50,906 bases of DNA from Actinomycetota bacterium (GTDB taxonomy: Bacteria > Actinomycetota > Thermoleophilia > Gaiellales > F1-60-MAGs149), in assembly GCA_005798855.1 (NCBI GenBank), contig SYIF01000134.1, positions 1-50,906 of the forward strand. The letters are read 5' to 3'. A model generated the notes under the pieces. That model was not told where the DNA came from, made no database searches, and was given only the letters and a program-made list of their open reading frames with translations. Positions 35,505 through 50,548 of the stretch are shown here, piece after piece (the first letter of the stretch is position 1; the number at the start of each line of letters is the position of its first letter). The translations under genes were made by a program, and so were the position numbers.

Positions 35505-36389
35505 CTACAACGCGTCGCGATACGCCGTCGGCGCGACGCCAACGTGACGCGTGAAGGTGGCCGCGAAGTGGCTCTGCGAAGCAAAACCGACAGCGTGAGC
35601 GACCTCTCCAACGGGAAGCGTGCTCGCGGCTAGGAGGGTGCGGGCACGATCGATGCGACGGATCGTCAAGTAGCGGTGAGGCGTAACGCCTGTGCTTTTG
35701 TGAAAACCGCGGGCGAAGTGGGCGCGGCTGACACCTGCAGCGGCCGCGAGGTCGTCGAGCGTGAGTGGCGCAGCGATGTCCTCGTCGATCAACGCGCGTA
35801 CATGTCGCAATTGTGCGGGTGAGAGCCCACCAGGAACGCGTTGCTCGCGCGGATTCATCGCGCAGTGTGTCCGTAGAAGGTGGAGGGCTACGGCGTGCCC
35901 CGTCGACTCGGCGAATAGATCCCCGGCGGACTGCGGCTCGCGCATTTCCTCGGCGAGCAGTCTTGTGGCCTGCCGCAGAAACGGGTCCTCGAAGGCAAAG
36001 CGTTCGATCAACTCGGGCGAATCGAAGCCTGCCTCGGTCGCGACGTCGACAAGAAAAGCCGGGTCGATATACAGGTGCAGCTCGTCGGTCGGCCGGTCCC
36101 AACGCCACGTATTCTCGCGCCCCGCGGCGATGATCAGCGAGTGCCCAGGACGAAAGTCGGCCTCAACACGCCCCTCGTCTGTATCACGCTCGACCCGCAA
36201 CGGACCCCGCACGGTGAACGAGATGTAGTGCATGTCGAGGCCCGGCAATGTGAGTCGATCAGGCAGCTCGCTAAAGCTCCACATGCCGACACCGACGCCG
36301 CGCCAACGGCGAGGGCGGGCCTGCAACAGGTCCTCGCCGCCGAGGTGGCCAACCCAGGTGGCGGGGGAGACGGGGGCGGCAGGCGTCAT
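35505..36389 (-). CDS. AraC family transcriptional regulator
   Basis: C-terminal HTH: TLDDLAAAAGVSRAHFARGFHKSTGVTPHRYLTIRRIDRARTLL...VGFASQSHFAATFTRHVGVAPTAYR. Confidence 0.95.
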   Translation of the reverse strand: MTPAAPVSPATWVGHLGGEDLLQARPRRWRGVGVGMWSFSELPDRLTLPGLDMHYISFTVRGPLRVERDTDEGRVEADFRPGHSLIIAAGRENTWRWDRPTDELHLYIDPAFLVDVATEAGFDSPELIERFAFEDPFLRQATRLLAEEMREPQSAGDLFAESTGHAVALHLLRTHCAMNPREQRVPGGLSPAQLRHVRALIDEDIAAPLTLDDLAAAAGVSRAHFARGFHKSTGVTPHRYLTIRRIDRARTLLAASTLPVGEVAHAVGFASQSHFAATFTRHVGVAPTAYRDAL

Positions 36390-37226: not shown

Positions 37227-37250
37227 TATACAGAAACGTATTTCTGTGTA
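37227..37250. promoter_or_regulatory. 24-bp near-perfect palindrome TATACAGAAA-CGTA-TTTCTGTGTA; candidate operator upstream of the transporter operon
   Basis: 10-bp arms with 1 mismatch, in the ~295-bp divergent intergenic region. Confidence 0.6.
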
Positions 37251-37334: not shown

Positions 37335-38783
37335 GTGCCTACAGGCACACCACAACTCGCAGCGGATATCAAAGATGTGATTCTCGACGCGCGTGGAGTC
37401 GCGGTCACCATTGATGGCACCGCAATTCTTCACGGGGTTGACCTGTCGGTGCGGCGGGGTGAGATCCATGTCCTGATTGGCCCTAATGGAGCCGGCAAGA
37501 CCACGTTTGCCAATGCAATCACAGGGCATGTCACCGTCACGGGAGGTGCCATCGCACTTGACGGCATCCCGCTCTCGGGCTCAATCTCGAAGCGAGCTCG
37601 CAACGGAATAGGGCGCAAGTTTCAGGTACCACGCGTCTTCCAGAGGCTATCTGTTGCCCAGAATTTGTCCGTCGCATCAAATCGAAAAATGAGCGACAAC
37701 GCACGGGCAGCCGACCTGATCGATGTCGGCGACAGTGAGGCGCGTGCAGATTCGCTCGCACACGGCGCGCGACAGCGCCTAGAGATGAAGATGGTGCTGA
37801 GTGAGGGGCCGGCGATCGCAGTACTTGACGAGCCGACCGCCGGGATGACGCGCTCCGAGCGCACGGAACTGGCGGCGATCGTTCGAGAGCAGGCTGGTCA
37901 TCAGACCTTTCTGATTGTCGAGCACGACATGGACTTTGTGGCGGAGGTTGCCGACCGGGTTAGCTTTATGCAAAACGGTCTGGTGATCGCCTGCGGAACA
38001 TTTTCTGAAATCGCCGAAAACCCCGTGGTCCAGGAGGCATATCTCGGAACAACACTGACTGCCCGCGATAAGGGCCAGAAGGTTCGTAAAGGAGGTGAGC
38101 GGGGCGCAATTCGGACGACAGCACTATCGGTGCGCCGTGGCAATTTGGAGGTCGTTCGCAATGCATCGCTTGATGTTCCGGCAGGCACCGCGCTGGGGGT
38201 CTTGGGTCGTAACGGTGCGGGCAAAACGACACTACTGCTGGGGCTAATGGGGCTACTCCCGACCAGCGGTGATGTCGAGTTCGAAGGTCAGAAAATCGTC
38301 GACCTCCCAGCTTGGAAACGGGCTCGTGGAGGGATCGCCTTAGTTCCACAAGGGCGCCAATTATTTTCAGACCTAACGGTGCAAGAAAATTTGAACCTCG
38401 CGACTTTTGACAAGGGTGGCGATGGGAAAGTTTTTGATGTCAACGAGTTGTTCCCGGCGTTGGCACCACTGTCGGCACGTCGAGCAGGGTTGCTATCAGG
38501 TGGCGAGCAGCAGCAGGTTGCGATTGCTCGCGCACTTCTTCGGCGGCCGACACTTTTGATTCTCGATGAGCCGACTGAGGGACTAGCACCGGCAATTATC
38601 GAAGAAATCGCAGCAGTACTTCGGTTTCTATCGAGCGAGGGCCTTTCAATCGTCCTCGCCGAGCAACACCGATCGGTGGTTGAGGCGGTCTGCGACACGT
38701 TTTTGGTGCTGCGGAGCGGCGAGATCGTGGGGGCGGGTCCAGCAGATCCGCAGGAAATTGATCAGCACTACTTGGCTCTATGA
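37335..38783 (+). CDS. Fused tandem ABC ATPase (UrtD-like + UrtE-like domains in one polypeptide), urea/amide-type transporter
   Basis: Two Walker A motifs (GPNGAGKTTFANAITG, GRNGAGKTTLLLGLMG) and two Walker B (AVLDEPTAGMT, LILDEPTEGLAP); GTG start after GAGGAG. Confidence 0.92.
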   Translation: MPTGTPQLAADIKDVILDARGVAVTIDGTAILHGVDLSVRRGEIHVLIGPNGAGKTTFANAITGHVTVTGGAIALDGIPLSGSISKRARNGIGRKFQVPRVFQRLSVAQNLSVASNRKMSDNARAADLIDVGDSEARADSLAHGARQRLEMKMVLSEGPAIAVLDEPTAGMTRSERTELAAIVREQAGHQTFLIVEHDMDFVAEVADRVSFMQNGLVIACGTFSEIAENPVVQEAYLGTTLTARDKGQKVRKGGERGAIRTTALSVRRGNLEVVRNASLDVPAGTALGVLGRNGAGKTTLLLGLMGLLPTSGDVEFEGQKIVDLPAWKRARGGIALVPQGRQLFSDLTVQENLNLATFDKGGDGKVFDVNELFPALAPLSARRAGLLSGGEQQQVAIARALLRRPTLLILDEPTEGLAPAIIEEIAAVLRFLSSEGLSIVLAEQHRSVVEAVCDTFLVLRSGEIVGAGPADPQEIDQHYLAL

Positions 38784-38819: not shown

Positions 38820-40133
38820 ATGGATCATGACAATGCGACACGGAAAGACTTTCTAAAAGCGGCAGGTGCTGTCAGCCTTGGCGGCGCGTTTCTAGCTGCT
38901 TGCGGATCGAGTTCCAGTAGCGGCAGCACCGAGGCGCCAGCAACGTTGGCAGATGCAGACACGGCGGTAGCGAGTGGGGGAGGCTCGACCGAAACGATCA
39001 AGGTTGGTCTACTGAACGCGCTGTCGGGAGTGTTGTCCATCACTGAGAAGTCGATCTATGACGGCTCGATGCTGGCAATTGAGCAAGTCAATGCTGCTGG
39101 TGGCGTGAATGGGCGGATGCTTGAGCCGATCACCGAGGACTACGCCTCCGACTTCACGATTGCTGTGCAGAAGGCGCAGAAGCTATTGACGGAGGACAAG
39201 GTTGCCATCGTAATCGGCGGCTACACCTCAGCTAGTCGCGTCGCAATGATTCCGACCTTCCAGAAGAACAATGCGTTGTTCTTCTACGGCACGTACTACG
39301 AGGGCTTGGAATGCGATCCGAACACGTTCTACGGAGGAGCCACGCCAAACCAGTTCCTCGTCGACTACGTCCCGTGGATTCTGGAAAACCTTGGTAAGAG
39401 CATTTACATCGTTGGCTCGGATTATCTCTACCCGCGAACCGTTTCGGCAATCGTCCAGAAGCTCGCCAAGGACAACGGCGGAAGCATCGTGGGTGACCAG
39501 TACTTCCCACTCGGCACTACCGACTTTGGTTCCGTGATCGCCGACATTGGGGCCAAGAAGCCCGACGTCGTCTTCTCGAACCTGGTTGGCGACTCGACGC
39601 CAGCGTTCTACAAGCAGTTTCGTGCAGCCGGCTATACCCCAGACAAGCTGCCGATCGCCGCAACCGTTACCACCGAGGTTGAGGTTCAGGCCATGGGAGC
39701 AGAAAACGCTGCTGGTAACTACATGACATCAACGTACTTCCAGTCGCTCGACAATCCTGCCAACACGGCATATGTCGCAGCGATGAAGGCGAAGTATGGC
39801 GAGGACACCGTCACGCACATGCCGCAGGTTGGCACGTACGACGCGGTGTGGCTGTTTGCCAACGCTGCAGCGAAGATCGATGGTGACATTACGACCGAAG
39901 CGCTCAGCGCTGCGCTGGTCGGGGCCACGTACGACGAGAACCCCGAGGGGCAGCCGATCACGGTGCTCGCGAATCACCACTGCAACCACCCTTCGTATGT
40001 GGGTATGGCAAACGCGGATGGTCAGTACGACGTGGTGGCAACGTTTGCGCCAACCGATGCTGATCCGTTCCCGTCGGTGATTGTGCCGGAGAACAAGCGT
40101 CCGACCTGTCCGACCCCGTTCAAGCCCCTATAA
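38820..40133 (+). CDS. Urea/amide-type ABC substrate-binding lipoprotein (Peripla_BP_5, UrtA/AmiC/FmdD-like)
   Basis: FLAACGSSS lipobox; LLNALSGVLSITEKSIYDGSMLAIEQVNAAGGVNGR; GGYTSASRVAMIPTF; YYEGLE; GATPNQ; SDYLYPR. Confidence 0.93.
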   Translation: MDHDNATRKDFLKAAGAVSLGGAFLAACGSSSSSGSTEAPATLADADTAVASGGGSTETIKVGLLNALSGVLSITEKSIYDGSMLAIEQVNAAGGVNGRMLEPITEDYASDFTIAVQKAQKLLTEDKVAIVIGGYTSASRVAMIPTFQKNNALFFYGTYYEGLECDPNTFYGGATPNQFLVDYVPWILENLGKSIYIVGSDYLYPRTVSAIVQKLAKDNGGSIVGDQYFPLGTTDFGSVIADIGAKKPDVVFSNLVGDSTPAFYKQFRAAGYTPDKLPIAATVTTEVEVQAMGAENAAGNYMTSTYFQSLDNPANTAYVAAMKAKYGEDTVTHMPQVGTYDAVWLFANAAAKIDGDITTEALSAALVGATYDENPEGQPITVLANHHCNHPSYVGMANADGQYDVVATFAPTDADPFPSVIVPENKRPTCPTPFKPL

Positions 40134-40156: not shown

Positions 40157-40183
40157 CCCACCCCGCCTTCGTGGCGGGGTGGG
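40157..40183 (+). terminator. 11-bp perfect hairpin CCCACCCCGCC-TTCGT-GGCGGGGTGGG after the SBP gene (partial terminator/3' stabiliser)
   Basis: Perfect inverted repeat in SBP-permease gap; no U tract. Confidence 0.65.
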
Positions 40184-40207: not shown

Positions 40208-41062
40208 ATGCAGACACTCATCAACATCATCGCCCAGGGTCTCTCGCTCGGAGGCGTATATCTGATTGGAGCCCTCGGGCTCACGATCATTTATGGCGTG
40301 ATGGGCGTAGTGAACCTCGCTCACGGGGAACTCATCATGCTCGGCTCGTACGTGATGGCACTGACTGTCTCGACCGTGTCGTTTCCAGTTGCCGTCGTAT
40401 TGTCGTTTGTTCTGGTTGCAGGTTTCGGTGTGGTGCTCGACACGGTTTTGATTCGATTTCTGTACCACAAGCCGGTTGCTTCAATGTTAGGTACGTGGGG
40501 GTTGGCGATTGTCTTACGACAGGTGGTGATCCTTCTGCTCGGGCCACAATTGCGCTACGTAGCACTGCCCATCGGGGGCTCGTTTGCGCTTGGCTACGGG
40601 GCATTGGTGAGCTGGTGGAGCATGCTCCTATTCGTCGTCGCGATGCTAATTGCTGTCGCAATCGGACTGACTCTGGTGCGAACCCGGTTTGGATTGAAGA
40701 TGCGGGCTGTCACAGCAAATTCCGACGCGGCGGAAAGTATTGGTATTGCCACGCGCAATATCAATCGCTGGACGTTCGCGTTGGGCTGCGGGCTTGCAGG
40801 TGTCGCGGGTGCACTCGTTGCACCGCTACGAACGGTGTTTCCTGGCATGGGCCTGCCCTATCTCGTTGGGGCTTTCTTGGTGGTGATTTTGGCCGGGCTT
40901 GGCAACGTTCGATCGACGGTCATCTGGTCCTTGCTGATTGGGTTGACCTTCTCGGCCGTCGCCATCACTCGTGATGACATCACAGCCACGATTGTCGTGT
41001 GGTGTGCGGCGCTGATCGTGATCGCATTTCGGCGAACCTCTGTCGCGGTCTCGAGGGTGTGA
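40208..41062 (+). CDS. Urea/branched-chain-type ABC permease (UrtB/LivH-like)
   Basis: ALGLTIIYGVMGVVNLAHGELIMLGSYV; TRFGLKMRAVTANSDAAESIGI. Confidence 0.93.
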   Translation: MQTLINIIAQGLSLGGVYLIGALGLTIIYGVMGVVNLAHGELIMLGSYVMALTVSTVSFPVAVVLSFVLVAGFGVVLDTVLIRFLYHKPVASMLGTWGLAIVLRQVVILLLGPQLRYVALPIGGSFALGYGALVSWWSMLLFVVAMLIAVAIGLTLVRTRFGLKMRAVTANSDAAESIGIATRNINRWTFALGCGLAGVAGALVAPLRTVFPGMGLPYLVGAFLVVILAGLGNVRSTVIWSLLIGLTFSAVAITRDDITATIVVWCAALIVIAFRRTSVAVSRV

Positions 41063-41066
41063 ACTG

Positions 41067-42167
41067 ATGCTGCACTTCATTCAGCGGGCTCGCACTGCTG
41101 ACATTCGAGTTCAGATTGCGATTGGCGTCGTGCTGGTCGCGATCGCTATCGTCGCGCCGTTGGTGACATCGTCGTTTGTCATCAGTTTCTTTGCTCTCAC
41201 ATTTCCGCTCGCAATTCTCGCTCTCAGCGCGGACATGATGTGGGGCGAAGGTCGCCTTGTCAGCTTTGGTCAGGGGCTCTTCTTTGCGGCCGGTGGGTAC
41301 ATCGGCGGCTTAGTACTGATCGGCCAGCAATACGACGTCTCCGGTTCGGCACTGTCGTTCCTCAGCGAAGACACGCAGCAGCCATTGATGGATCGTGTCC
41401 TGCAGCAGCTCCACGACTTGGCGATCGCTGGTGTTCCCATTCCCGCATTGATCTTGCCCGCAATGATCTGTGGTGTCGTCGGGCTACTGATCGGAATGAT
41501 CGTCTTCCGCGTTGCGTCACCCGAAGTGTATTTCCCCCTCGTGACGCTTGGCATGGGCGTAGTCGGTGGACTGTGGTTTAACGACCTCAGCAATGTTGGC
41601 GCGTCGAATGGGCTTGGAGGTATTCCGTCGTTTACCGCTGAGATGGGCCCGCAACAAGATCCGATCTACAACTACATGTTCAACTTAGCGTTTGTGATTG
41701 TGGCATTCGCGGGTTGGGCGTACTTCCGGCGTTCTCGCAGGGGGCAGATTTGGCGAGGAGCTGGCGATGATGCTATTCGACTTGAGGCTCTTGGCTATTC
41801 CGTACGACGGCAGCGGGTTCTCGCGTTTGGTGCATCCGCAGCCTTGGCAGCGGTTGCCGGCGCTCTCTACGCAGGGACCTCCGGCTTCATGGGGCCATCG
41901 ATTGCAGGGGTAGCGTTCAGTGCGGAGGTACTGATTTGGGTCGCGGTTGGTGGCTCGGGTCGTGTCCTCGGACCGCTGGTTGGAGTGCTGGTCGTTCGAT
42001 GGGGACAACAGTTCTTGTCGTCGAACCTGGGGCTCCAGCAGAGCTGGCAGCTTTTCATGGGGCTTGCATTGATCTTGGTCGTCGTCGTTGCACCTGGTGG
42101 GCTGCTTGGCATTCGCATTGAACCGCTGCGCAAGCGACTATTCGAGCGAGGGGAGATCAAAGCATGA
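41067..42167 (+). CDS. Urea/branched-chain-type ABC permease (UrtC/LivM-like)
   Basis: LALSADMMWGEGRLVSFGQGLFFAAGGYIGG; GRVLGPLVGVLVVRWGQQ. Confidence 0.93.
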   Translation: MLHFIQRARTADIRVQIAIGVVLVAIAIVAPLVTSSFVISFFALTFPLAILALSADMMWGEGRLVSFGQGLFFAAGGYIGGLVLIGQQYDVSGSALSFLSEDTQQPLMDRVLQQLHDLAIAGVPIPALILPAMICGVVGLLIGMIVFRVASPEVYFPLVTLGMGVVGGLWFNDLSNVGASNGLGGIPSFTAEMGPQQDPIYNYMFNLAFVIVAFAGWAYFRRSRRGQIWRGAGDDAIRLEALGYSVRRQRVLAFGASAALAAVAGALYAGTSGFMGPSIAGVAFSAEVLIWVAVGGSGRVLGPLVGVLVVRWGQQFLSSNLGLQQSWQLFMGLALILVVVVAPGGLLGIRIEPLRKRLFERGEIKA

Positions 42168-43507
42168 TCGCGGGCCTTTACGACGATCTTTGCAAGAGGG
42201 CCGCAGAGGGCCGTCCGATCCGTGTCGCGCTGATCGGTGCCGGCACCTTTGGGGGCATGGCGATTCGTCAGTGCCTGCGGGTTCCGGGGATAGAACTTGT
42301 TGCCGTCGCCGATCTCGATGTGATTCGGGCTGCGACTGTGTTACGTGATGCAGGTGTCAATCAGCAGCGTTTGGCATTTAATCTGCCAACACTGAGTGAC
42401 AGCATTCTGGTGACGACTGATGCTGAGGCCGCGATTGCCTCGGAGCACATTGACATCGTGATTGAGGCGACAGGATCACCAATTGCAGCGATTCGGCATA
42501 TTCGGCTAGCGTTCGCGGCCGCGAAACACGTCGTCAACGTGACGGTTGAAGCTGATGCGTTGGTTGGTTCAGCACTGGCCGTAGAGGCCCATAGTCTTGG
42601 TCTGACGTACTCACTGGCGTATGGCGACCAACCAGCATTGATTTGCGAGCTGGTTGATTGGGCGCGCGTCAACGGATTCGATGTGATCTCGGCTGGCAAG
42701 GGGACCTTGCATAAGCCAGGATTCGAATGGACATCCCCCGATACGGTCTGGACGAGGTATGGGATGGATGCAACCCAAGCCGACGGTGCGGGCTATGACA
42801 GGCGCATGTTCACATCGTTCGTCGACGGAACCAAGTCGGCAATCGAGATGGCGGTTGTCGCCTCAGCGACGGGGCTCGTCGTCCCAAAAGCAGGCCTTGG
42901 GTTCCTGCCCGTGGGGATTGGCGAATTGCCGAGCACGCTCCGGCCTCGTCACGCTGGAGGCCAGTTGGAGCGCTCGGGTATCGTCGAGGTCATTTCGGCT
43001 ATCGAGGCCGACGGAGAGGCCGTCACGAATGACCTTCGCTGGGGCGTCTTCGTGGTCGTTGGGACTGACGACAATGAAGTCGCCCGTTGTTTTCGCGACT
43101 ATGGGTTGACGACCGACACCACCGGCAAGTTTGCTGCACTCTGGCGGAATAACCATCTCGTCGGCATGGAACTGATGACGAGCGTTGCCACAGTCGGTCT
43201 GCTCGGCCGACCGACAGGTGTCCCGAAGAGTCATTGCGCTGAAGTCGTGGCCGTCGCAAAACGCGATCTTCCCGAACAGATGGAGATCGATGGTGAAGGC
43301 GGCTACACCGTGTTCGGCAAATTGATGCCGGCAGAAAACGCCCGTTCGGAAGGCGCAGTTCCGATCGGGCTGGCTCGTGGATTGCGAACAGTTCGGCACG
43401 TCTCTCAAGACGACCTTCTGACGTGGGAAGACGTCAATGAGTCTGGGCCTGACGACATTCGCAGCCTGCGTGAATCCATGTTCAACAACGTATCCGTGAG
43501 CGCATGA
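42164..43507 (+). CDS. NAD(P)-binding homoserine-dehydrogenase-like/SAF-domain oxidoreductase
   Basis: IRVALIGAGTFGGMAIRQCLRVPGIELVAVADLD; C-terminal SAF-like LARGLRTVRHVSQDDLLTWEDV. Confidence 0.82.
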   Translation: MIAGLYDDLCKRAAEGRPIRVALIGAGTFGGMAIRQCLRVPGIELVAVADLDVIRAATVLRDAGVNQQRLAFNLPTLSDSILVTTDAEAAIASEHIDIVIEATGSPIAAIRHIRLAFAAAKHVVNVTVEADALVGSALAVEAHSLGLTYSLAYGDQPALICELVDWARVNGFDVISAGKGTLHKPGFEWTSPDTVWTRYGMDATQADGAGYDRRMFTSFVDGTKSAIEMAVVASATGLVVPKAGLGFLPVGIGELPSTLRPRHAGGQLERSGIVEVISAIEADGEAVTNDLRWGVFVVVGTDDNEVARCFRDYGLTTDTTGKFAALWRNNHLVGMELMTSVATVGLLGRPTGVPKSHCAEVVAVAKRDLPEQMEIDGEGGYTVFGKLMPAENARSEGAVPIGLARGLRTVRHVSQDDLLTWEDVNESGPDDIRSLRESMFNNVSVSA

Positions 43508-43559: not shown

Positions 43560-45608
43560 ATGAGTACTAAAGAAACCGACAACGGAGTTCGTGTTGCCGT
43601 GGACGTCGGTGGCACATTCACCGACGTCTTCGTGCTTGATGCTGACGGACATACACATGTCGCAAAGACACCATCGACACCCGATCCAATGGATGGTGTC
43701 CTCAAGGGTGTTGCTGCCGCCGGAGTTGATTGGAAAGACGTGACGCTGTTCTCGCACGGCACGACGATCGCAACAAACGCCTTGATCACACGCAAGTTCC
43801 CCCGCGCAGCAATGGTCATCACGGAAGGATTTCGTGATGTCATCGAAATCCGTCGTGGTAACCGCGATGACCTCTGGGACACCTACAAGGAGATAGCGCC
43901 ACCGTACATCGGTCGCCGCGATCGTCTCGTGGTCAAGGAGCGCATTAACTACGCCGGTGATGTCTTGACGCCGGTTGACGAGGTCCAGGCGCGCGCTGTC
44001 GCCAACGTGATTCGCAAGCGTGGAATCAAGACCGTGGCCGTCTGCTTTGCGAATTCCTACGCCAACCCCGACAACGAGAATCGTATGCGGGACATTTTGC
44101 TGGAAGAGCTGCCTGATCTGCGGGTGACGACGTCGAGCGAAGTGCATCCGGAGATCTTTGAGCACGAGCGCTTCTCGACGACGGTTGCAAATGCAGTGTT
44201 GTCGCCCATCATCGCTCCCTACACAGAAGGGCTAGCGCGCGAGCTCGCCGATCGAGGGTATGCCGGCGACGTGCTGCTTCTGCATTCGGGCGGCGGCGTC
44301 ATGACCGCCAAGATGGCCGAGAAGTTTGCTGCTCGTCTGGCAGCGTCGGGTATCGCAGCTGGTGCAATCGCGAGTCGAGAGATCGCAAGTCGGTGCGGCT
44401 TTGAAAACTCGATTGGCTTCGACATGGGTGGTACATCCACCGACGTGTCGCTTGCTGATCGTGGCGAACTTCGCATCACGACGGAGTGGTACGTGGAGTA
44501 CGGCTATCCAATCTGCTTCCCCTCGATTGAGGTTCTCACGATTGGAGCGGGTGGTGGCTCGATCGCCTGGATCGATGACGCGGGCTCGCTGCGCAACGGT
44601 CCTCAGTCTGCTGGTGCCAATCCCGGACCCGCCTGTTACGGATCTGGTAGTGGACTTGCCACAAACTGTGACGCAAACCTCGTGCTTGGTCGCATCGGTA
44701 CGCAGCTTGTTGGTGGAGCGATGACGCTCGATGTGGCTGCAGCCGAGGCAGCTGTCGTTGCGATTGGTGGTCCGCTTGGATTGAATGCGGAAGATGCAGC
44801 ACTGGCGATTATCCAAGTTGCCAACGCGAATATGGCTGATGCCGTGCGTCTTATCTCCATTCGACGTGGCTACGACCCACGCGACTTTGCGCTGGTGTCG
44901 TTCGGCGGTGCTGGGCCATTGCATGGTGTCGCGCTAGCCAAGGAGCTCGCAATTCCCACAGTGATCGTTCCGCCGCATCCTGGCGTCACATCTGCGCTCG
45001 GTTGCCTACTCGTCGACGTTCAGCACGACATCACCAAGATGTACCTGAAGAGCGCAAACGAGGCAGAGCCCGCTGTCGTGGAAGAGGCCTTTCAAGAGCT
45101 CGAGGCATCGGGACGAGAACGTCTCGAACACGAGGGTGTTACGCCGGAACAGATGTCGTTCCAACGGTTTATTGACATGCGTTACCAGGGCCAGTGGCGT
45201 GCAATGTCGGTTCGGGTGGGCTCGTCGATTGTCTCGATGGATGAGGCGATCAAGGAGTTCCATGCAGAGCATGGTCGAGAGCACAACTACAGCCGTGAGG
45301 ATGCTCCGGTTGAGATCTATCGCCTCTCGCTCCGTGCAATTGGCACCACACCAAAGCCCGAAATGGGACGCCGTGCAGTGATCGAAGGCTCGACCGCCGA
45401 GCCGTTTGAGTATCGCAATGCCCGTTATGACGAGCTACCTGACCGGGTGTCTACGCCGGTCTTCAATCGTGATGATCTTCCGCCTGGTTTTGAGATCGAC
45501 GGGCCAGTCATCATCGATCAGCTCGATTCCACGACAGTCGTGCCGCCAGGTTGCCGGGCACGGGTTGACGAGTGGATGAATATTCAAATCACCATTGAGG
45601 AGGTCTGA
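43560..45608 (+). CDS. hyuA: Hydantoinase/oxoprolinase family, A subunit
   Basis: VAVDVGGTFTDVFVLDADG, SHGTTIATNALITRK, GFDMGGTSTDVSL, PHPGVTSALGCLL. Confidence 0.95.
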   Translation: MSTKETDNGVRVAVDVGGTFTDVFVLDADGHTHVAKTPSTPDPMDGVLKGVAAAGVDWKDVTLFSHGTTIATNALITRKFPRAAMVITEGFRDVIEIRRGNRDDLWDTYKEIAPPYIGRRDRLVVKERINYAGDVLTPVDEVQARAVANVIRKRGIKTVAVCFANSYANPDNENRMRDILLEELPDLRVTTSSEVHPEIFEHERFSTTVANAVLSPIIAPYTEGLARELADRGYAGDVLLLHSGGGVMTAKMAEKFAARLAASGIAAGAIASREIASRCGFENSIGFDMGGTSTDVSLADRGELRITTEWYVEYGYPICFPSIEVLTIGAGGGSIAWIDDAGSLRNGPQSAGANPGPACYGSGSGLATNCDANLVLGRIGTQLVGGAMTLDVAAAEAAVVAIGGPLGLNAEDAALAIIQVANANMADAVRLISIRRGYDPRDFALVSFGGAGPLHGVALAKELAIPTVIVPPHPGVTSALGCLLVDVQHDITKMYLKSANEAEPAVVEEAFQELEASGRERLEHEGVTPEQMSFQRFIDMRYQGQWRAMSVRVGSSIVSMDEAIKEFHAEHGREHNYSREDAPVEIYRLSLRAIGTTPKPEMGRRAVIEGSTAEPFEYRNARYDELPDRVSTPVFNRDDLPPGFEIDGPVIIDQLDSTTVVPPGCRARVDEWMNIQITIEEV

Positions 45609-45609
45609 C

Positions 45610-47610
45610 ATGGCGAATCAGGAAACTAAAGCCGCGTATACGCTCGATCCAGTGACGTTCGAAGTACTCAAGAACGCATTCGTCAATATCGTCGATCAGA
45701 TGGCGGAGCAGATTCTACGAACGTGTTACTCGTTCGTCATCTACTCGCGTGACTTCTCATCGGCGCTCTGCGACCCAAATGGCGACACCGTCATGCAGGG
45801 CTCTGGCGATATCGCTGCTCACGTAGGCACACTTCATTTCACAGCTAAGGCCGTGATCGATGCGTTCGGCGATGACATTAATGCTGGTGACGTCTTCGTT
45901 GTCAACGATCCGTTCGCTGGTGGCACGCACTTCAATGACACGCGTGTGGTTCGACCGATCTTCTATCACGGCGAGCTGCTCGGATTCTCCCAGGCCAACG
46001 GGCACTGGGCAGATGTTGGCGGTGCGGTACCGGGGTCGTTCAACATCAAGGCCCTCGACCACATGGGCGAGGGGCTTCGTATTACGCCCGTTCGCGTGTG
46101 GGACAAGGACCGTTACCTTGCCGACGTAGCGCATCTGATTGCGAGCAACACGCGGGCACCGAAGGACATTATTGGCGACCTGCAGGCGCAGGCCGAGGCC
46201 ACGCGCTTGGCAGAGCGTGAGATTCAGCGGCTCTGCGACAAGTATGGGGTCAACATCATTCGAACGGCCTTTTCCGAAGTCCAAGACTACGTTGAGCAGC
46301 TCACGCGTGCGCGTGTGAAGAACCTGCCTGACGGAGAATGGGAGACCGAGGATTACATCGATCAGGATCCAGTCCTCGGTGAGGGCCTGATTCCGATCAA
46401 GATTCGCCTCAAGATCGAAGGCGACTCAATTCACTACGACCTGTCAGGGTCGCATCCGACGATCTCGACCTTTCTCAACGCGGCGTTCGGAGGTTCGTTC
46501 GCAGCGATTGTGGCTGGAACCAAGATTCAATTCCCCGACCTACCGCTCAACTCCGGGTTCTACCGAGTGGTCACTCTCGATTGGGGTCCGGAAGGAACGG
46601 TTGTCAACTCAGTCTGGCCAACGCCCTGTGCAGGATTCTGTTCGGGGCCATTCGAGAAGATCATGAACTCGGTGTTCGAACTCTGGGCGAGCATCCTGCC
46701 GGAGCGCGCCATGGCCTGCACCTTCAACCTTGAATATCTCTTGGTTGGTGGGCGCGACAAGCGCATCGAGGGTCTTCCGTACTTCATGTGGTATGACTGG
46801 ATGGTCGGTGGCTGGGGTGGTCGCAACGGCAAGGACGGGTACGGCGCAACAGGCCCGGTCTTCGGCGTCCAGCTCGGCACGCAGCCGTTTGAAGGACAAG
46901 AGCGGTTGGCACCAGTTCTGACCACGGGGCATGAGTTGATCCAGGACTCTGCCGGTCCAGGCAAGTGGAGAGGTGGCCTTGGAGCCGAAAAGGGTGGCAC
47001 GTTGTACTCGGCTGAACGCGCTGTTGTCTCGTACTGCTGTGACCGAGAGCGATCTGTTACGTGGGGGCTTTGGGGCGGCTTGCCGTCGATTCCTCACGGT
47101 GTATGGGTCAACCGTGGACTCGAAAATGAGCGCTATCTCGGGTCGATCTTCTCGGGTGAGCCAATCTTCGAAGGGGACGTCTTCACGCGCCCATCTGCTG
47201 GCGGTGGTGGTATCGGTGATCCACTGCTTCGCTCGGTTGATGATGTGCTCGAAGACGTCATCGATGAGTATGTTTCGATTGCTCGAGCCAAGACGGATTA
47301 CGGAGTCGTGGTACGAGAAACTGATGCCGACCTTTGTGAGTATGAGATTGATCACGAAGCGACGCAGGCCACGCGCATATCAATCGCTCAGGATCGAGAG
47401 GGTTGGCTTGATGTTGACGCTGAATCGATCGCTCAGAAGTATCGCGATCGAGAGTTGAACGAGATGGATCTTGTTCGGCAGTATGGCGTGATTTTGGATT
47501 GGGGTTCTGGCGAACTCCTACCGAAGACCACAGAGCAGTTCCGCACCATGTTGCGGCGTCGATCGTTCGACTTCTGGCGCAACGGCATGCCGACTGGAGC
47601 ACGCGCGTAG
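45610..47610 (+). CDS. hyuB: Hydantoinase/oxoprolinase family, B subunit
   Basis: DPVTFEVLKNAFVNIVDQMAEQILRTCYSFVI, NDPFAGGTHFNDTRVV, RPSAGGGGIGDPL. Confidence 0.95.
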   Translation: MANQETKAAYTLDPVTFEVLKNAFVNIVDQMAEQILRTCYSFVIYSRDFSSALCDPNGDTVMQGSGDIAAHVGTLHFTAKAVIDAFGDDINAGDVFVVNDPFAGGTHFNDTRVVRPIFYHGELLGFSQANGHWADVGGAVPGSFNIKALDHMGEGLRITPVRVWDKDRYLADVAHLIASNTRAPKDIIGDLQAQAEATRLAEREIQRLCDKYGVNIIRTAFSEVQDYVEQLTRARVKNLPDGEWETEDYIDQDPVLGEGLIPIKIRLKIEGDSIHYDLSGSHPTISTFLNAAFGGSFAAIVAGTKIQFPDLPLNSGFYRVVTLDWGPEGTVVNSVWPTPCAGFCSGPFEKIMNSVFELWASILPERAMACTFNLEYLLVGGRDKRIEGLPYFMWYDWMVGGWGGRNGKDGYGATGPVFGVQLGTQPFEGQERLAPVLTTGHELIQDSAGPGKWRGGLGAEKGGTLYSAERAVVSYCCDRERSVTWGLWGGLPSIPHGVWVNRGLENERYLGSIFSGEPIFEGDVFTRPSAGGGGIGDPLLRSVDDVLEDVIDEYVSIARAKTDYGVVVRETDADLCEYEIDHEATQATRISIAQDREGWLDVDAESIAQKYRDRELNEMDLVRQYGVILDWGSGELLPKTTEQFRTMLRRRSFDFWRNGMPTGARA

Positions 47611-47641: not shown

Positions 47642-47683
47642 CCCGGCTACGACGGCAGACTTCTCGCTGTTGTCGTAGCTGGG
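47642..47683. terminator. 17-bp stem (with GU pairs) CCCGGCTACGACGGCAG-ACTTCTCG-CTGTTGTCGTAGCTGGG after hyuB
   Basis: Fully paired arms in the 116-bp gap between hyuB and the SBP paralogue. Confidence 0.7.
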
Positions 47684-47726
47684 TGCTCAATCCCCTTTGA
47701 ACCTCTCGTGATGACAGGTCTCACAC

Positions 47727-48902
47727 ATGTCCCGATCGGAAAAAACCGATGGTGCCAGCAATCGTTGGGAACGTGGGACGGTTGTCCGTGTGGGTCTGCT
47801 GTACTCGACGACGGGCTACGCCGCTGCTGAGGAGACCTCGATTCGGCAGGGTGCAATTCTGGCCGCTGAGCAAATCAACGAACAGAGCGACTCGTTAGGG
47901 TTCCAACTCGAGCTGGTGCTCAGTGACTACGAGTCCGACTCGACGCAGGCAGGGCGCAACGCTGTTGACTTGCTGGCCCGTGACCGCGTCGACGTCTTGG
48001 TCGGCGGGTACACATCTGCGAGTCGCGTCGCAATCGTCGCAGCAACCGAGCATCTGGATTGTGCATACATCTATCCAACGTATTTTGAGGGACTCGAGAT
48101 ACAGCCCAACGTGCTGTACACGGGGGCCGTTCCAAACCAGTACTTCGAGACGTACTTGCGGTGGATATTTGAGACGCTTGGGAAAAAGATCTACGTGATT
48201 GGATCGGATTACGTCTATCCGCGCGCACTCAGCGTGATGATCCAAACGTTGGTCCAGACGGCCGGTGCTCAAATCGTGGCTGACCGCTACGTGCCACTTG
48301 GAACTCCGGACCTAAAACACATTGCCCAAGAGATCTGTGAGTTGCAGCCAGATGTCGTGATCTCCAACCTTGTCGGTGTTGACTCGCTGCGATCGCTGTA
48401 TCAGGAGTTTCATCGAGCTGGACTCGACTCAGGGAAACTCCCAATCGCTGCGACGGTCACAACGGAATTTGAAGTCAGCGAAATCGGTGCTGAGTACGTC
48501 CAAGGGCATTACATGGTCTCCACCTATTTCGGTTCGCTCACCAATGCGGCCAATGAGTCGTATGTCGCGTCCCTGAAGCATCGGTTTGGCGATGCGACGG
48601 TTCCCCACGTCGCCCAGGTCTGTGCGTATAACGCGATGTGGGTGTTGGCGGAAGCGATGCGGGACTGTGCTGTTCCGACGCCATCAGCGATCAAGCACGC
48701 GTTGAAGTCCGCCTCGTTTGACGGTAATCCCGAGGGTTGGCCGTTGGTTATGCGGGAGAACCAGCATTCGACCCATGGCTCGTATATCGGAGTGGCTGAG
48801 GGGGATGGCTCGTACACCGTTGTGATGACAATCCCACCATGCGACCCTGATCCATATCCGCCATCGATTGTGCCGGCAGAAAAACGCCCTCCCGCGACGT
48901 AA
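47727..48902 (+). CDS. Signal-less urea/amide-type ligand-binding protein (AmiC-like, Peripla_BP_5), probable cytoplasmic sensor
   Basis: Clear paralogue of the 38820 SBP but N-terminus MSRSEKTDGASNRWERGTVVRVGLLYSTTGY has no signal peptide or lipobox. Confidence 0.88.
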   Translation: MSRSEKTDGASNRWERGTVVRVGLLYSTTGYAAAEETSIRQGAILAAEQINEQSDSLGFQLELVLSDYESDSTQAGRNAVDLLARDRVDVLVGGYTSASRVAIVAATEHLDCAYIYPTYFEGLEIQPNVLYTGAVPNQYFETYLRWIFETLGKKIYVIGSDYVYPRALSVMIQTLVQTAGAQIVADRYVPLGTPDLKHIAQEICELQPDVVISNLVGVDSLRSLYQEFHRAGLDSGKLPIAATVTTEFEVSEIGAEYVQGHYMVSTYFGSLTNAANESYVASLKHRFGDATVPHVAQVCAYNAMWVLAEAMRDCAVPTPSAIKHALKSASFDGNPEGWPLVMRENQHSTHGSYIGVAEGDGSYTVVMTIPPCDPDPYPPSIVPAEKRPPAT

Positions 48903-48932
48903 CGTGAATCTGCACACACGAGGGAGTGACAA

Positions 48933-48968
48933 ATGCTATGCCGTTTTCTAATCTTTTTGCAGCGATAA
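48933..48968 (+). other. Candidate 11-aa leader ORF MLCRFLIFLQR upstream of the PucR gene
   Basis: ATG preceded by GAGGGAG Shine-Dalgarno at good spacing; stop 32 nt before GTG 49001. Confidence 0.35.
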
Positions 48969-49000
48969 GAACATTGCTCTTGAAGTGAACGAGTAATTCA

Positions 49001-50548
49001 GTGATCAGGCTAGAAGAACTCCTGAAGGTCAACGCTCTTGACATGAGTCTGATTGCCTGTGCGAATTCTGAAGACACATGGATTCGCTGGGTACATACGG
49101 TTGAGGATTTACGCGACGTTGAGCGCCTCAAAGGTGGAGAGCTTGTGGTCTCTTCTGGTCGCTGGTGTAACGACCGCTCGGCGGCCGATAGTTTTGTCTG
49201 TGGACTAACTCAGCGCGGTGTTGCTGCTCTAGGGATCAGTGAGCAGGTCGCCTTAGAGGCCGTCGTTGAGGCATGCGAACGGTGGCGGCTACCACTCGTG
49301 GAGATTCGATACCCGACAACGTGCGAGCGTGTTTCGGAAACGGCGGCCTCGCTGATCGTTGATCGACGCACGGCAATCCTCTCGGAATCCGTACAACGTG
49401 AGCGCGTCTTTGCCGCCGTGGCCGGCTCGGGTATTCGTGAGACGTTAGACCTGCTTCAGCGCGATTTGCGACACCCGGTTTGTCTGGTGACGCGTGGCGC
49501 AGTACATACGTCTTCGCGCGAGACCCTGCTCAGTTCGGACGATCTCCGATTGCTGGGAATGTCTTGTGGACGTTCCACTACCGTCTTGGAAGTTCCCTCG
49601 GCGACGTCGGGCAAGGTCACGACGTTTGCTGTCGAGAGGTCGTTTGCGAAAGACCGCCGCAACGTGGCGAGACTTGTCTGTGGCTGTCCGCGGGACGAAT
49701 TAGATTCGCACACGATCGCACTCTTCGAACAAGCGGCGCTGTTTCTTGGTCTTCAATTGCAGCACGGCGATGAGGTTCGTGCGTTGCGACGACGAGGTGA
49801 ATCGGAACTAATTCGCCGGATTTTGGCTGACGAGGCCTCGCCAGAAGAGACAGCTGCCTGGGTAGGAGCACTCCAAATCGAGTCGCTAGGTGCGGTCACA
49901 TGCGTGGTGATCAAGGGTGATGAACTCGACGAGTTACAACTTGCCGATTTTGCAGATGCACTCGACGACCTTGCGGATGCAACATCGTGCTCCCGCGTCT
50001 TTAGCCAGGGAGAGTCAGAGGTTGGTATCGCATTGATGCGATCGCCAGACGAGATCGCTGCACCGCTGGAGCACTGCCGCACCTTGATCGAGGATCAGCT
50101 CAACCGGTCGAATGCCTACTTGGGCTCAAGTTCGGCAGTAGCCACCTCCATCGGGGATGTCGCACGTCTGTTCTCCCAGGCGCGTCAGGTACTTCGCCTC
50201 GAATCGCTGCGACACTCTACAGTGAGGGGATTCGCCGTTGGAGCGGATATTCCGCTTGCAGCACTCATGTTGCAGACCGACATGGACGCTCGCCGGAGGC
50301 TGACATCGATTCTGCTTGACCCCTTGATCGAGTACGACGCGTCTCATGACTCAGATCTCATGAATACCCTTGATGAGTACTTGAGTGCAAACGGGCATTG
50401 GAATGTCGCGGCCGCGAGATTGGGCCTCCACGTCAACACGTTGCGCTACCGCGTGGCGCGGATTGAAGAGGTGACAAAGAGAGATCTGAGCACGATGCGT
50501 GATCGAGCCGATTTCTTTATCGCGCTGCGGTGTCGGATCGAACTGTAA
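49001..50548 (+). CDS. PucR family transcriptional regulator (GTG start)
   Basis: PucR N-terminal domain pattern (DVERLKGGELVVSSGRW...) and C-terminal HTH LDEYLSANGHWNVAAARLGLHVNTLRYRVARIEEVTKRDL. Confidence 0.94.
   Translation: MIRLEELLKVNALDMSLIACANSEDTWIRWVHTVEDLRDVERLKGGELVVSSGRWCNDRSAADSFVCGLTQRGVAALGISEQVALEAVVEACERWRLPLVEIRYPTTCERVSETAASLIVDRRTAILSESVQRERVFAAVAGSGIRETLDLLQRDLRHPVCLVTRGAVHTSSRETLLSSDDLRLLGMSCGRSTTVLEVPSATSGKVTTFAVERSFAKDRRNVARLVCGCPRDELDSHTIALFEQAALFLGLQLQHGDEVRALRRRGESELIRRILADEASPEETAAWVGALQIESLGAVTCVVIKGDELDELQLADFADALDDLADATSCSRVFSQGESEVGIALMRSPDEIAAPLEHCRTLIEDQLNRSNAYLGSSSAVATSIGDVARLFSQARQVLRLESLRHSTVRGFAVGADIPLAALMLQTDMDARRRLTSILLDPLIEYDASHDSDLMNTLDEYLSANGHWNVAAARLGLHVNTLRYRVARIEEVTKRDLSTMRDRADFFIALRCRIEL

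Follow-up and report, generated by a model that had tools for sequence, protein, structure and literature searches.

The window, as we call the whole stretch of 50,906 nucleotides analyzed here, comes from an incomplete draft genome of an Actinomycetota bacterium (1.93 Mb, 142 contigs, 72% complete) and carries an operon whose genes, all on the forward strand, stand in the order UrtD-UrtE fusion, substrate-binding protein (SBP), UrtB, UrtC, DRL-type oxidoreductase, HyuA, HyuB, a second SBP, referred to as SBP′, and a PucR-type regulator. The first gene (37335-38783) encodes a double ABC ATPase with two ABC_tran stretches, which scores 322 bits as UrtE and 296 bits as UrtD; UrtD-like and UrtE-like ATPases here form one fused polypeptide. 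It is followed by an exported transporter SBP with a lipobox (38820-40133), whose N-terminus, MDHDNATRKDFLKAAGAVSLGGAFLAAC, is a lipoprotein signal, and then by the UrtB-type (40208-41062) and UrtC-type (41067-42167) permeases, two BPD_transp_2 proteins scoring 213 bits for UrtB, below the equivalog cut-off, and 161 bits for UrtC, also below cut-off. A very stable GC-rich hairpin (40157-40183, fold z = -3.5) separates the transporter SBP gene from urtB and could possibly set an excess of SBP over permease. The DRL-type oxidoreductase (42164-43507; PF21135, 158 bits) precedes HyuA (43560-45608), a hydantoinase/oxoprolinase large subunit of the ATP-dependent lactam/hydantoin hydrolase type, and the corresponding small subunit HyuB (45610-47610). 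HyuA and HyuB belong to a family of ATP-dependent hydantoinases, oxoprolinases, and caprolactamases (PMC8453981); against the caprolactamase models, each with a cut-off of 1000 bits, HyuA reached 500 bits (alpha model) and HyuB 319 bits. Upstream of the operon, 85 bp before its first gene, is a 24-bp imperfect palindrome, TATACAGAAAcgtaTTTCTGTGTA (37227-37250), and an AraC-type regulator is encoded at 35505-36389.

SBP′ (47727-48902, 391 aa) is a Peripla_BP_5 protein (Pfam, 313 bits) that shares 48% identity over 371 aa with the transporter SBP, far above chance. The first-pass annotation had pointed to long stretches common to the two proteins, and most of the strings it quoted were found, the last of them reading PPSIVPAEKRP against PSVIVPENKRP. 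It had also described SBP′ as missing an export signal, which the DNA bears out: upstream of the ATG, the frame of SBP′ reads LS, two stops, and QVSHM, with TGA TGA at 47709-47714 followed by four codons and then the start, so that a longer protein with an in-frame signal peptide is impossible. SBP′ has neither the export signal nor the position before urtB that mark a transporter SBP, and we infer that it resides in the cytoplasm. Signal-less SBPs are easily misannotated as parts of transporters.

The same upstream DNA could be read differently: SBP′ would be exported like the transporter SBP, had a frameshift not recently removed its signal peptide, or the signal is only seemingly lost through an assembly error in the incomplete draft. 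A lipobox-like peptide, GRLLAVVVAGC, is encoded at 47654-47686 in the +1 frame, out of frame with SBP′, about 33 codons before the fold, and this spacing is near the 31 codons of the transporter SBP. However, no ATG, GTG, or TTG precedes the peptide in its frame, a stop lies there shortly before it, and the frame of SBP′ has two stops between the peptide and the SBP′ open reading frame, meaning that at least two errors would be required. The peptide also overlaps a strong 17-bp hairpin between hyuB and SBP′ (47642-47683, an inverted repeat without a T run, fold z = -3.2) that constrains the sequence, and its chance rate of 0.4-0.6% (0.56% of shuffles and 0.37% of stretches of the window yielded a peptide as good) was obtained post hoc. 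The peptide may be a relic of a lost signal or may have arisen by chance. If it were a relic, export would have been lost recently and SBP′ would have diverged mostly while exported, weakening the case for a sensor; we regard a lost or seemingly lost signal as quite unlikely.

In Pseudomonas, the cytoplasmic SBP homologue AmiC controls the antiterminator AmiR, which it frees when it has bound a small amide. In a tree of 42 SBPs of this and related genomes, together with AmiC (1pea), UrtA (7s6e), and 8tg1, SBP′ is the sister of the transporter SBP (support 100/99), with an end branch of 1.16 vs. 0.34 for its sister. The 15 SBPs that adjoin ANTAR genes, AmiC included, form a separate group (98/98). 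Forcing SBP′ into that group cost 51.6 log-likelihood units (AU test, p = 0.0013), and descent from AmiC was rejected. Given this rejection and the sister placement, SBP′ is a duplicate of the transporter SBP rather than an AmiC descendant, and one that arose independently and evolves faster. The earlier proposal that the transporter's own SBP had been duplicated is thus supported. No comparable protein was found among the 12 congeners searched, no SBP′ orthologue in two samples of 399 genomes, one drawn from the phylum and one from the class, and no close relatives in a pattern scan of 85,488 species genomes with SBP′ alone; with both SBPs, the scan returned 48 loci, the best of which were transporter SBPs, 34-38% identical.

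A branch as long as that of SBP′ might also be taken for the mark of a decaying copy without function. The reading frame, however, is open over its full length, and its codon use resembles that of the operon in frame only (log-odds of 0.196 per codon; the two shifted frames give -0.557 and -0.490). AlphaFold, which gave a useless model from the single sequence and needed an alignment for a usable one, produced from 33 aligned sequences a model with a pLDDT of 90 and a pTM of 0.89, poorly ordered only in the first dozen residues and at the very end. Foldseek searches with this model retrieved UrtA/urea-binding proteins first and AmiC next, with a TM score of about 0.87, and the match of SBP′ to PDB 1pea (AmiC) has an E-value of 4e-46. 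SBP′ is an intact protein with a confidently predicted UrtA/AmiC-like fold, its ligand-pocket residues are kept, and decay is in our judgment highly improbable.

The ligand pocket was compared through the nine residues surrounding urea in UrtA, taken from PMC10392092, where W120, S122, Q144, Y190, and N246 are urea pocket residues. Signatures read at these sites across 143 aligned SBPs are mainly of three kinds. SBP′ and the transporter SBP are identical at all nine sites, YSYYEYYVV, a signature found in 38 SBPs whose next gene is urtB, a count that includes the window's transporter SBP and one SBP beside an aliphatic amidase gene (L057); another SBP beside an amidase gene (L056) has the near variant YSYFEYYVV. 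The urea-type signature is WSYQEYFNS, and most AmiC-type sensors carry YSYLEYYVT, with variants in the others. Both window SBPs have Y, Y, and V where the urea pocket has W, Q, and N, and urea was rejected as their ligand on account of these residues. Since their pockets are identical, the two proteins probably share one ligand, which by their signature would be an amide and not urea. The presence of HyuAB suggests that this ligand belongs to the amides, lactams, or hydantoins.

Located 98 bp downstream of SBP′, the last gene of the operon (49001-50548, 515 aa, GTG start) had been called a PucR-type HTH regulator, and its domain matches agree: the N-terminal PF07905 domain (60.7 bits) and the C-terminal HTH_30 domain (PF13556, 66.6 bits) both score above cut-off, while a GGDEF-like domain stays below it (21.9 vs. 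24.5 bits). The accompanying remark that ANTAR proteins are missing nearby is correct for the window, the one ANTAR match of the genome being on contig C61. The ribosome sites of SBP′ and PucR are weak (-3.2 and -2.5 kcal/mol; -6.4 to -12.1 kcal/mol for the other operon genes except urtB), as expected of regulators. Signs of translational coupling are absent from the 98-bp gap. The order of SBP′ and regulator mirrors that of about 40 loci, mostly alphaproteobacterial, where an ANTAR gene comes after a signal-less SBP; most of these loci continue with the exported SBP and urt genes. Two of the ANTAR proteins were scanned, and both show AmiR_N-ANTAR architecture. The core of the palindrome upstream of the operon, ACAGAAAN4TTTCTGT, has an exact match nowhere else in the 1.93-Mb genome. 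Adjacency, operon logic, and this unique palindrome make PucR a plausible partner of SBP′. SBP′ might instead sense in the cytoplasm for another regulator, either the AraC-type protein or the ANTAR protein encoded on contig C61; both are present in the genome, and ANTAR proteins are the usual partners of signal-less SBPs. Neither gene adjoins SBP′, however, and the sole ANTAR match is on a different contig, so that we consider such a partner very unlikely.

A PucR neighbor is the unusual part of the SBP′ arrangement. In a sample of 399 genomes, no signal-less SBP was found in the stretches surrounding the 17 PucR genes most closely related to that of the window, and no second SBP′-PucR pair around these 17 relatives, several plasmid PucR genes, or any of the SBP matches. 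Conservation of the neighborhood in relatives is thus without support, in a comparison that is weak because SBP′ has no orthologues in the data. On plasmid pDND3A of Rhodococcus gordoniae (L183, 8725-15992), PucR adjoins HyuAB without an SBP, and HyuA is 62% identical to that of the window; two PucR genes lie side by side on this plasmid. PucR also adjoins HyuAB on a Pseudomonas amygdali plasmid (L208, 4930-12042), where the annotated ABC transporter is unrelated and there is no second SBP. Neighborhoods of this kind imply that PucR may need no partner. It could sense its effector alone and regulate hyuAB and the transporter, leaving SBP′ as a cytoplasmic binder with some different role, for example feedback on the UrtDE ATPases or buffering of the ligand. 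Both end domains of the window PucR are complete, and its retained N-terminal domain counts against the need for an SBP partner. On the other side, signal-less SBPs of the SBP′ family typically adjoin a regulator or are fused to one, and to our knowledge SBP roles such as ATPase feedback or ligand buffering have no precedent. That PucR acts alone seems to us unlikely, if less easily dismissed than a lost signal or a decaying copy.

Sensing by a cytoplasmic SBP is an established mechanism (PMC3795266), and several known systems resemble SBP′ in part. The AmiC/AmiR pair of the Pseudomonas aeruginosa amidase operon (PDB 1pea, 1qo0) likewise combines a signal-less Peripla_BP_5 protein with an adjacent regulator in an amide-type operon, and AmiC, besides its similar fold, has six of the nine pocket residues in common with SBP′, plus a hydrophobic V. 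However, the neighbor of SBP′ is PucR rather than an AmiR_N-ANTAR protein, and SBP′ stands outside the AmiC clade with the pocket signature of the transporter. In NasS/NasT, which acts in nitrate assimilation, NasS is also a signal-less cytoplasmic SBP homologue that resembles a transporter SBP and controls a regulator, but it belongs to the NrtA-like SBP family, has an ANTAR partner, and binds nitrate/nitrite (PMC3795266). UrtA and the amide-type UrtA-like SBPs of urtABCDE operons share family and fold with SBP′, the amide type also the exact nine-residue pocket, whereas they are exported and placed before urtB.

Outputs other than ANTAR proteins occur as well. AmiC homologues of Rhodococcus nitrile hydratase clusters work, as far as is known, without ANTAR proteins, and an AmiC homologue of M. 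smegmatis reportedly does so too. In Parageobacillus thermoglucosidasius, a gene on plasmid NZ_CP063415.1 (L058, 8992-11325) encodes a protein in which a Peripla_BP_5 domain lacking a signal is joined to a PAS domain, a sigma-54 activator domain, and a Fis HTH domain; the gene adjoins nitrile hydratase and aliphatic amidase genes, and its product would, from its domains and neighbors, be a one-protein amide sensor-regulator. Like SBP′, it is of the same SBP family, has no signal, and is tied to a DNA-binding regulator; unlike SBP′, it is linked covalently, uses a sigma-54 activator, and groups with the AmiC clade (98/95). Apparently signal-less SBPs on a distant branch were also seen in other Acidimicrobiia-class relatives (L139, 6839-7954, reverse strand; L142, 6485-7840, forward strand; L144, 1684-2829, reverse strand), those of L139 and L142 near HD domain-LuxR genes; a hydrolase-adenylate cyclase fusion likewise lies close to that of L139. 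These are possibly further cytoplasmic SBP sensors.

On the regulator's side, GabR, AdeR, and PutR share the PucR-type architecture of the window protein and bind inverted repeats of 17-24 bp, a range that includes the 24-bp candidate, which we infer to be an operator; GabR, too, is without a clear GGDEF-like domain (PMC7652997). No SBP partner is described for the three regulators in PMC7652997, and in vitro GABA left the affinity of GabR for DNA unchanged (PMC7652997).

On the likeliest reading of the locus, SBP′ is a cytoplasmic sensor that resembles AmiC but originated independently, probably with the adjacent PucR as its partner; a sensor role for SBP′ is likely. In the mechanism that we propose, the UrtABCDE-type ABC transporter would import a small amide, or a lactam-like one, which HyuAB would process as an ATP-dependent enzyme of the hydantoinase/lactamase type. 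SBP′, remaining in the cytoplasm, would bind the same compound after import and control PucR by protein contact. By analogy with AmiC/AmiR and NasS/NasT, empty SBP′ would most likely hold PucR and loaded SBP′ release it, and PucR would switch the operon from the palindrome. As a whole, this explanation, from the duplicated SBP through PucR to the palindrome, is tentative and falls just short of an even chance. The first-pass annotation had spoken of a possible new cytoplasmic amide-sensing module, which overstates the case: cytoplasmic SBP sensors were already known, and the PucR partner alone would be new. That an amide transporter SBP gave rise to such a sensor for a second time, one that controls PucR in a pairing not described before, is a real possibility about which we are somewhat more doubtful than convinced.

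If true, the conversion of a transporter binding protein into an intracellular sensor would be a repeatable evolutionary step, and SBP sensors could be wired to different outputs, namely RNA-binding ANTAR proteins, a sigma-54 activator, and PucR. PucR would gain a separate effector-sensing subunit, which would hint at how effector perception works in some PucR-type regulators, a point that in vitro work on GabR did not explain (PMC7652997).
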